DNA of 64,000 nt from Balneicella halophila (GTDB taxonomy: Bacteria > Bacteroidota > Bacteroidia > Bacteroidales > Balneicellaceae): NCBI RefSeq assembly GCF_003096835.1, contig NZ_QENZ01000005.1:62001-126000 (forward strand). The letters run 5' to 3'. Every line of letters begins with the position of its first letter. Within the stretch, counting starts at the first letter, position 1. A program made the position numbers and the translations under genes. Positions 41,871-43,961 of this stretch are shown here, in pieces. The notes below the pieces were generated by a model. That model was not told where the DNA came from and ran no database searches. It saw nothing but the letters and a program-made list of their open reading frames with translations.

Positions 41871-42800
41871 TTACCAAGAATATTTTCTAGATTCTATATC
41901 ACATACGTTTTTGTGCATCACCTGAATATATTCACAAAAGGCAGCCAATTCAAACTCTACTTCATAATCTTCCATATAAGGATAAACATCTGTAGTTGGG
42001 AAGTCATTGTAAACTTCGTTTAGAAACTCTTCGACACTAAATCTATGTGGTTTGTATTTTGTTAATGGCTCTTTATTAAGAGGTTGCCACCAAATAGTTT
42101 TAGCATCAATACCATACAAAAGTTTTGTTTCTGAAGTTTGAAATACTGTAAATCGTTGGTCTGTAAGTTTACGGAGGATGCTTAAATCAATGAAATCCCA
42201 TAAATAAATAAGAGAGATATCCCTAATATCTTGCCAATTTATATTATTTATTATAAACTCACAAGCATTAAAAGTTAGTCCTTTGTACCATTCGTTTCCT
42301 GTGTTTTTATGAACAAGACAAAGGTTAAGTATGCATTTGTAAAAGATTATATTGTTCAGATTGGTAGAATTGAACGATGTCGATTCTATCTTAGAATCTA
42401 AAAAAAAGAGTGCCTTTGAAATCACAATCTAAAATAAAGCCGTTTTTATTTAAGAATTCCTAAATGATTATTCCTTGTAATTGCAATCAGATGCATGTAT
42501 AGACTCTATTATTGTATTTTTAATCTTTAATCGTCTCGTATCACAATTGTTGACATAGAGACTGATTTCAGAATTATTGAATTTGTTGTTAATCATTGAA
42601 CAATCTATAAAAGAAATAGATTTTATTTGTGCACCTGTTCAGTCGACATTATTTATATTTTCAGATACAACACTAAGATTTTTGAGATTGATACCGTGTG
42701 CTATGGCTTCAATAAGAACAGAGCGATAGTTTTGGAATAAATCACTTTTTGGAAGTTCATATAGAATCTCTTCTTCTATTGTTTTTAATTGAATCATCAT
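41871..42800 (-). pseudogene. Decayed pentapeptide-repeat protein gene
   Basis: The minus strand encodes a protein starting MMIQLKTIEEEILYELPKSD at 42800. It runs into pentapeptide-like repeats (LKNLSVVSENINNVD), but TGA at 42641-42639 interrupts it where a Trp would fit. The repeats go on in the same frame (TGAQIKSISFIDCSMINNKF), reach TAA near 42465, and then resume in another frame (GFILDCDFKGT). At an eight-T run (42407-42400) they cross into the open frame 42425-41871 (SFNSTNLNNIIFYKC), whose 184 codons are intact. At least one nonsense change and two frameshifts are needed, so I read it as a pseudogene. The C-terminal ~100 residues are not repetitive and not recognisable. Confidence 0.6.
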
Positions 42801-42920: not shown

Positions 42921-42928
42921 TATCTTTG
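42921..42928 (+). promoter_or_regulatory. Bacteroidota -7 element upstream of the DUF3127 gene
   Basis: TATCTTTG, exact TAnnTTTG, 25 bases before the ATG at 42954. CTG (not TTG) stands 19 bases upstream. Confidence 0.5.
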
Positions 42929-42953: not shown

Positions 42954-43328
42954 ATGGAAGTAACGGGAAAAGTAAAAACGGTGCTTGAGCAACAGACATT
43001 TGGCAGTGGTTTTACAAAAAGAGAAGTGGTAGTGACTACAGATGAGCAATACCCTCAACATTTGTTGATAGAATTTGTACAAGATAAAGTGGCTTTACTT
43101 TCTGATCTTTCAGTTGATGATAAAGTGAAAATCAGTATCAATTTGAGAGGTAGAGAGTGGCAAGCACCTGATGGAACAATAAAATATTTTAATTCCATTC
43201 AAGGATGGAGGTTAGAGAAATTAGGAGATAGTCCATCGGGAATTCAAGATACACCTCCTCCTTATGAACAATTTGGCGGAAAAGACCTTGCTCCCCCTAA
43301 TGAAGAAATGGACGATTTGCCATTCTAA
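42954..43328 (+). CDS. DUF3127 protein, OB-fold-like with SSB-type C-terminal tail
   Basis: A 124-residue cytosolic protein matching DUF3127, a mainly Bacteroidota family with a predicted OB-like fold. It starts MEVTGKVKTVLEQQTFGSGF, then VVVTTDEQYPQHLLIEF and DDKVKISINLRGREW. After ~90 residues comes a Pro-rich flexible stretch and the tail EEMDDLPF, strikingly like the SSB C-terminal tip that recruits repair and replication proteins. Binding of single-stranded DNA is plausible but not shown. The aat start follows its stop with no gap, so the pair is co-transcribed. Confidence 0.82.
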   Translation: MEVTGKVKTVLEQQTFGSGFTKREVVVTTDEQYPQHLLIEFVQDKVALLSDLSVDDKVKISINLRGREWQAPDGTIKYFNSIQGWRLEKLGDSPSGIQDTPPPYEQFGGKDLAPPNEEMDDLPF

Positions 43329-43961
43329 ATGTACCAATTAACGAACGAGCTCGTTTTTCCACATCCTATGCTTGCCGATGAGCATGGCATTTTAGCTTAC
43401 GGAGGTGATTTATCAGCGGAACGTCTCATGTTAGCTTATACCTACGGTGTTTTTCCTTGGTATAATGAAGGCGATCCCATAATGTGGTGGTCACCTGAAC
43501 AGCGTTTTGTTTTGTTCCCAGAAGATCTGAGAGTTTCGAAGAGCATGAAAAAAGTCTTGAGAAACAAAGAGTTTGTAATTACTCAAAATGAAGACTTTTC
43601 AGGAGTCGTTCGTTCGTGTAAAGAGGTGCAGAGACCAGGACAAGACGGCACGTGGATAACTGATGAAATGGAAAAAGCTTATACAAAACTCCATGCAAAA
43701 GGAATCGCCCAAAGCATTGAAGTGTGGAAAGAGGATAAACTCGTCGGAGGTCTTTATGGTGTGGTTGTTAGAGATGTTTTTTGTGGTGAAAGTATGTTTG
43801 CAAAAGTCAGTAATGCTTCGAAAGCTGGTTTCATAACTTTAGTGCAGAGTAAACAATTTAAATTGTTTGATTGTCAAGTGCATACAGATCATCTAGAACG
43901 CTTAGGAGCTAAGCATATTCCACGTGAAGACTTTCTTCGCTTTCTGGGTATTGTAGTGTAG
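43329..43961 (+). CDS. aat: Leucyl/phenylalanyl-tRNA-protein transferase
   Basis: Aat (210 residues) transfers Leu or Phe from tRNA to N-terminal Arg or Lys of proteins, creating N-degrons for ClpAP. The family markers are present: LLAYGGDLS-like (here ILAYGGDLSAERL), YTYGVFPWYNEGDPIMWWSP, then LVGGLYGVVVRDVFCGESMF. Length is slightly shorter than E. coli Aat (234). It directly abuts the DUF3127 gene; I know of no functional reason for the pairing. Confidence 0.94.
   Translation: MYQLTNELVFPHPMLADEHGILAYGGDLSAERLMLAYTYGVFPWYNEGDPIMWWSPEQRFVLFPEDLRVSKSMKKVLRNKEFVITQNEDFSGVVRSCKEVQRPGQDGTWITDEMEKAYTKLHAKGIAQSIEVWKEDKLVGGLYGVVVRDVFCGESMFAKVSNASKAGFITLVQSKQFKLFDCQVHTDHLERLGAKHIPREDFLRFLGIVV

Follow-up and report, generated by a model that had tools for sequence, protein, structure and literature searches.

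The tail of the bacterial single-strand DNA-binding protein (SSB) organises DNA repair and restart. In Bacillus subtilis, it recruits at least 12 proteins, according to an excerpt of one report (PMC3000357). Excerpted passages of another state that loss of the terminal Phe of SSB abolishes partner binding and that replacing the penultimate Pro by Ser reduces it strongly (PMC10164576). Whether or not the linker is included, peptides of the SSB tip are described, in part of a third report, as binding RecO, PriA, chi, and PriC equally well, and RecO as making additional interactions with the whole SSB (PMC7145534). Fitting PriB with the SSB tail improves its binding of ssDNA, and the engineered protein stimulates PriA, as stated in an excerpt of the corresponding work (PMC8509808).

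The family considered here, DUF3127 (PF11325), is known in part. Its phage branch already bears the SSB label in PHROGs and in the majority of the RefSeq records listed, and a Pantoea phage SSB with a match to the DUF3127 superfamily appears in an excerpted report (PMC8004638); Pfam gives the family as one of unknown function. In the literature searched, PF11325 is unmentioned and DUF3127 is barely mentioned by name, and the titles and abstract openings of work on a second SSB in Bacteroidetes, on Flavobacterium phages, and on Riemerella transformation did not yield the family. What is new here is a chromosomal family, present in nearly all sampled genomes of the class, that exists beside SSB and combines an SSB/PriB-type predicted fold with an invariant SSB-like end.

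We analyzed a window of 64,000 nucleotides from Balneicella halophila, which carries one member of this family (Table 1). The PF11325 model matches the protein over residues 2 to 88 (1.5e-28; 99.3 bits, above the cut-off of 27), and its C terminus reads ...APPNEEMDDLPF in the ORF translation. By this protein, the nearest named relatives are flavobacteria, with at most 62% identity. The source genome, which spans 2.09 Mb and is 98% complete, encodes DUF3127 and canonical SSB once each. Upstream, TATCTTTG begins 33 bases 5' of the DUF3127 ATG and is the only match within 100 bases to TAnnTTTG, the Bacteroidota -7 promoter consensus. For a 184-aa ORF on the minus strand of the window (41871-42425), the 80 related loci from genome contigs contain no relative in the vicinity of DUF3127.

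We propose that DUF3127 probably represents a compact SSB-type protein additional to canonical SSB, one that would bind ssDNA and recruit the proteins that interact with SSB, and that its phage form serves phages as their SSB. This reading builds on the ORF, its predicted OB fold, the conservation of its tail, its co-occurrence with SSB, and its phage context, which are shown here.

Table 1. Features of the DUF3127 locus, in window coordinates
Feature	Position	Strand	Basis
Candidate Bacteroidota -7 promoter element TATCTTTG	42921..42928	+	Match to TAnnTTTG
DUF3127 / SSB-like protein gene	42954..43328	+	ORF of 124 aa plus stop
OB domain, residues 1-91	42954..43226	+	AlphaFold2 model, fold matches, aromatics kept
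Linker, residues 92-116, Pro-rich, variable, low-confidence	43227..43301	+	Conservation, low pLDDT
Acidic tip EEMDDLPF, residues 117-124	43302..43325	+	Conservation in 127 bacterial-genome sequences
aat, leucyl/phenylalanyl-tRNA protein transferase	43329..43961	+	PF03588, 6.4e-71

We determined how DUF3127 and canonical SSB are distributed. DUF3127 is present in 171 of 296 genomes of the phylum, each at least 90% complete, and in 72 of the 73 genomes sampled from the class, the latter count being read by us from the kinship columns. In a further sample, taken from the order of the source organism, 17 of 21 genomes have DUF3127, as do 16 of the 17 genomes in this sample that are at least 90% complete; the family was not found in the other 4 of these 21 genomes, one of which is 90% complete, nor in 1 of the 73 class genomes. 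Canonical SSB was found in 293 of the 296 genomes of the phylum, and the 171 that have DUF3127 include 169 with SSB; the host therefore keeps both, and replacement of SSB by DUF3127 in the host is ruled out. The two DUF3127 genomes without SSB (G024 and G220) may be assembly gaps. Among 14 control genomes, DUF3127 was found only in Bacteroides ihuae, and 4 of 72,556 plasmid records contain it.

A preliminary description of this DNA had read the protein as a short OB-like domain followed by a Pro-rich linker and an SSB-like end, EEMDDLPF, and had named structure prediction against OB folds and tail conservation across DUF3127 as checks. The layout is borne out in all three parts, and both checks gave positive results. 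The AlphaFold2 model, computed with 67 aligned sequences, has a mean pLDDT of 83.8, with 90 to 97 per block of ten over residues 1 to 90. It contains strands at residues 2-10, 21-29, and 36-42, a helix at 43-49, and strands at 57-70 and 76-89, which is the order of an OB fold. Beyond this domain, the modeled tail is unstructured and of low confidence, and the 27 residues from 92 to 118 include 6 Pro (counted by eye).

The best solved matches to the predicted fold are SSBs and PriB. Namely, Foldseek returned 79 PDB chains at E<=0.001, and all but one of the 50 rows listed are SSBs, the remaining one being a PriB. In VIA-align, the top row is PriB (1woc; Z 9.8, rmsd 2.9, 74 aligned), tied with a Salinibacter SSB (Z 9.5, rmsd 5.3, 85 aligned). 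When viral models were searched by fold, a DUF3127 protein ranked first, and the named rows beneath it are DUF3127 or SSB, many rows being unnamed. By prediction, the protein has the SSB-type OB fold of canonical SSB, and its model has the compact version of that fold represented by PriB. Six positions of the domain (F20, Y33, W69, Y78, F79, and W85) are each aromatic in 126 or 127 of 127 sequences.

The top VIA-align row brings up the alternative of a PriB-like primosome protein with a tail, which would act mainly in PriA-directed replication restart and not as a general ssDNA coat. Such a role would agree with the properties excerpted for the PriB-SSB tail chimera (PMC8509808) and with a PriA domain match in the source genome. 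Yet the PriB and SSB rows lie within 1 Z of each other, Foldseek puts SSBs first, and several phage copies lie near annealing and exonuclease genes, though primase/helicase neighbours occur too. On balance, we regard a dedicated PriB-like role as unlikely.

Returning to a second SSB-type protein, the similarity of DUF3127 to SSB at the sequence level is weak yet reciprocal, and extends over the OB half. The window protein gives a full-length match to PHROG_4932, named "single strand DNA binding protein," at 2.6e-38 (residues 1-124; profile positions 1-117 of 117), and reciprocally the SSB of the source genome matches PHROG_4932 at 2.6e-5. The SSB profile PHROG_44 matches the window protein at 1.9e-4 over residues 52-124. 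With phmmer, the window protein reaches a Deinococcus SSB at 0.0026; a profile of the family alignment (A1) searched against the PDB finds SSBs at 0.049 or worse, the Deinococcus SSB being at 0.049. Profile-profile comparison of DUF3127 with SSB gave an E of 3.5e-7 (probability 93%) when the tail was included, and 2e-4 (47%; local) or 6.8e-4 (11%; global) for the OB part alone.

The Pfam model of SSB, PF00436, is reached at E<=0.1 by 7 of 67 DUF3127 family members, the best at 0.0026. The window protein has no match to PF00436 at E<=1; thus, it is not filed as a canonical SSB. A PF00436 search of the source genome likewise returned one place, the canonical SSB, and the DUF3127 gene is not among the matches. 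In E. coli SSB, the base-stacking residues named in an excerpted source are W40, W54, F60, and W88 (PMC3991886). By sequence alignment, aromatics are kept at W40 (Y33) and W88 (W69), F60 falls on F41/V42 with a doubtful register, and the W54 position is absent from DUF3127, lying in a shortened loop.

The acidic end provides a further link to SSB. The canonical SSB of the source genome (136 aa) terminates in ELDDADDLPF, its last five residues, DDLPF, being common to the DUF3127 protein. A search of the 2.09-Mb genome for D-[F/L/I/M/V]-P-F followed by a stop (TAA or TGA; TAG not covered) gave 5 matches, against 1 for the reversed pattern. Two of the five end ORFs longer than 100 aa, and these are the canonical SSB and the DUF3127 gene; the remaining three terminate open frames of 9, 6, and 40 residues. 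Across bacterial genomes, Pro-Phe forms the last two residues in all 147 DUF3127 copies read, among which species may be repeated. These comprise the window copy, 80 relatives from genome contigs (the best 80 of 379 by tblastn score, the tail being included in the score), 46 whole-genome loci (16 from the same order, and the top 30 of the phylum sample), and 20 further copies, the lowest-scoring among the phylum matches listed, which are those of 2e-23 or stronger. The 66 whole-genome rows were not selected for their tail because the PF11325 model stops at residue 88. A chance origin of the tail is ruled out, given that just two ORFs of more than 100 aa are among the five pattern matches and that Pro-Phe is present in 147/147 copies.

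Conservation along the protein is uneven. Identity to the window protein in the OB domain drops to 21% among the 127 aligned bacterial-genome sequences, and the mean majority-residue frequency is 0.66 in the OB domain versus 0.38 in the linker (residues 92-115). In the tip of these same sequences, majority frequencies are 0.90 for D120, 0.95 for D121, 0.93 for L122, and 1.00 for both P123 and F124. Since the tip is kept while the linker drifts, we conclude that the tip is under selection as a motif. The Pro and Phe of the SSB tip that partner binding requires, according to published work, are exactly the two invariant residues of the DUF3127 tail.

The tip of DUF3127 can differ from that of the host SSB. 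Both tips were read in 13 genomes, which were picked for their listed SSB coordinates and include odd-tip lineages: SSB ends in DDLPF in 13/13, and DUF3127 differs from DDLPF in 8/13, ending instead in HDVPF, DGEAPF, DGDAPF, DGDMPF, or DVLPF. The idea that DUF3127 carries an exact copy is thus unsupported. Because its tip departs from DDLPF in these genomes, DUF3127 may not serve every SSB partner there; as far as sequence goes, the divergent tips hint that it could serve a subset of them. At loci L174, L181-L183, L188, L192, and L193, the DUF3127 tip is HDVPF, DGEAPF, DGDAPF, or DGDMPF, and the SSBs of the same genomes (L239-L245) keep DDLPF.

Based on these features, we infer how such a protein might work in terms of ssDNA binding, oligomeric state, partners, and pathway. 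The OB domain most likely binds ssDNA as a small oligomer, as its fold, conserved aromatics, and phage context suggest, and the flexible linker would let the tip reach its partners. Like the SSB C terminus (SSB-Ct), the tip would dock in pockets of SSB-interacting proteins, e.g., RecO, PriA, and RecQ; domain matches for these three proteins are present in the source genome. DUF3127 would then act beside canonical SSB and deliver selected partners to ssDNA, the likeliest pathways being recombination, repair, or the restart of replication.

A DUF3127 relative was found in 127 of 50,697 phage records. Of these, 124 are named for genera of Bacteroidota, and three have no host genus ("Bacteriophage sp." twice and "Dulem" once). 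Most of the RefSeq versions listed give "single strand DNA binding protein" as the product name, with Polaribacter phage Freya_1 as an exception, and the GenBank versions mostly read "hypothetical protein." For one gene of Tenacibaculum phage Gundel_1, GenBank (MT732474.1) gives the label DUF3134 and RefSeq (NC_062747.1) that of a single strand DNA binding protein.

In Nonlabens phage P12024L, the order is Erf annealing protein, YqaJ exonuclease, and DUF3127; in phi18:3, RecT lies five genes upstream of DUF3127; and other phages have NinG, a RusA-like resolvase, or primase/helicase genes nearby. Among the 137 proteins flanking 47 of the 80 viral copies, called with a greedy ORF caller, we counted up to 11 matches to exonuclease PHROGs, 6 RecT-like, 4 Erf-like, and 4 NinG, any one PHROG family accounting for at most 11 of the 137. 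Exonuclease, RecT, and Erf lead the named PHROGs among these neighbours (25 of the 151 matched families shown).

DUF3127 and SSB also appear to avoid each other in phages. A canonical SSB above the cut-off is missing from 37/37 viral records with DUF3127, and DUF3127 is missing from 10/10 viral records with SSB. This comparison covers 37 of the 80 loci with DUF3127 and 10 of the 17 with SSB, which we chose mostly by record size, the two longest viral records (L008 and L009) being left out. In 2 of the 37 records, a sub-threshold match to the SSB model falls inside the DUF3127 gene itself. The pattern supports, without proving, that the two proteins stand in for each other in phages, given that records may be fragments and that a base rate is absent. 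Phages of Bacteroidota hosts have probably taken (or given) DUF3127 as their own SSB for annealing-type recombination.

The viral tails are more varied than those of bacterial genomes. PF closes 60 of the 80 viral relatives, which are the best 80 of 184 and not entirely free of near-duplicates; another 10 are long but end differently, and the remaining 10, at 91-98 aa, have no tail. Nine of the 10 long non-PF ends are near the tip motif, e.g., DLPFN, DDLPY, and DDLPW. The tail-less copies end right after the OB domain (L054, L059, L060, L066, L067, L069, L070, L073, L080, and L081), and these ten are a natural control set.

The preliminary description had offered two readings, an SSB variant or a competitor of SSB. 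The variant is favoured by the weak SSB profile matches over the OB half and by the recombination/replication context in phages, and the competitor is less supported. The latter would be a regulator without ssDNA binding of its own, whose tip fills partner pockets off ssDNA or whose OB domain joins SSB tetramers. It could account for the two of four base-stacking positions that are lost or doubtful, and for a tip kept even at 21% OB identity. Yet the six aromatic positions of the OB domain are kept in 126 or 127 of 127 sequences; the OB domain is useful by itself, since 10 of 80 viral copies keep it without the tail; and, because SSB above the cut-off is missing from all 37 viral DUF3127 records, DUF3127 must do more than modulate an SSB encoded by the phage that carries it. 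We regard a competing regulator as improbable.

The second SSB-type protein that we favour is encoded, in the host, next to a gene of another kind. The aat ATG abuts the DUF3127 stop at the next base; thus, the two genes are probably co-transcribed. Of the 80 nearer relatives, 75 have aat downstream in the same orientation, 55 of these no more than 300 bases away as judged from the match ends. In the whole-genome loci (1.5-kb flanks searched), it was found in 10 of 46. This gene order looks like operon history, not mechanism. No repair or replication family was found among the 19 host neighbours scanned at 14 distant loci; these belong to metabolic, envelope, toxin-antitoxin, and unknown families, with one dCMP-deaminase-type protein, one aat, and three without a match. 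The aat of the window completed this set of 20 proteins. As a functional clue, host neighbours offer nothing beyond aat in nearer relatives and are mixed farther out. One chromosomal DUF3127 gene is directly adjoined, at L182:1860-2532, by paired genes for a RelE-type toxin and an HTH protein.

That the OB domain serves another ligand (RNA, tRNA, or protein), with the acidic Pro-Phe end acting differently, is very improbable: aat works on charged tRNA, its order is kept in 75/80 nearer relatives, and weak IF3_C matches occur in 22 of 67 DUF3127 members (best 0.0026), yet the match of the window protein is below the cut-off (18.1 versus 34.8 bits), aat is found in just 10/46 whole-genome loci, and named phage neighbours are mostly DNA recombination/replication genes. 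We took the IF3_C and HexPS-like matches, which are below the cut-off, as chance. IF3 is absent among the fold rows listed for Foldseek and VIA-align, an absence that does not argue against such a relation.

If DUF3127 is indeed a second tail-bearing protein, current models of how RecO, PriA, and RecQ are recruited in Bacteroidota, which are major gut and environmental bacteria, would be incomplete. A widespread uncharacterised family would gain a concrete candidate function, and the family would suggest a protein to co-express with phage annealing proteins in genome-editing tools for laboratory strains of Bacteroidota. A broader model, to which we give a little less than an even chance, is that Bacteroidota operate a pair of SSB hubs in parallel, one formed by canonical SSB and the other by a compact OB protein of the PriB kind whose own SSB-Ct tip serves a chosen subset of repair proteins. 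For many of their phages, the latter hub would be the sole SSB in annealing recombination, host and phage thereby sharing one docking code.

Overall, DUF3127 resembles several described systems without coinciding with any of them. Like bacterial SSB (PF00436; E. coli SSB and B. subtilis SsbA), it has an OB fold, a flexible linker, and an acidic D-L/I-P-F tip. Yet its sequence similarity to SSB is weak and best over strands 4-5, and its OB domain is shorter (about 91 residues versus about 107 in the SSB of the source genome), with a shortened loop. With the PHROG_4932 phage proteins it forms one family, matched over the full length and including the tail; in contrast to them, the window copy is chromosomal, has an SSB in the same genome, and lies next to aat, not recombination genes. 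As an extra SSB-type protein beside a main SSB, it recalls B. subtilis SsbB. SsbB belongs to PF00436, is not known to carry the tip, and functions in natural transformation, whereas DUF3127 is a separate family in which the tip is present. PriB is the closest in predicted structure, since the model has a compact SSB-type OB fold and gives its best structural Z with PriB. Natural PriB is described in an excerpt of PMC8509808 as lacking an SSB tail, whereas DUF3127 has one in all 147 bacterial-genome copies read; the layout of PriB plus an SSB tail, engineered in that work, is thus one that DUF3127 has naturally.
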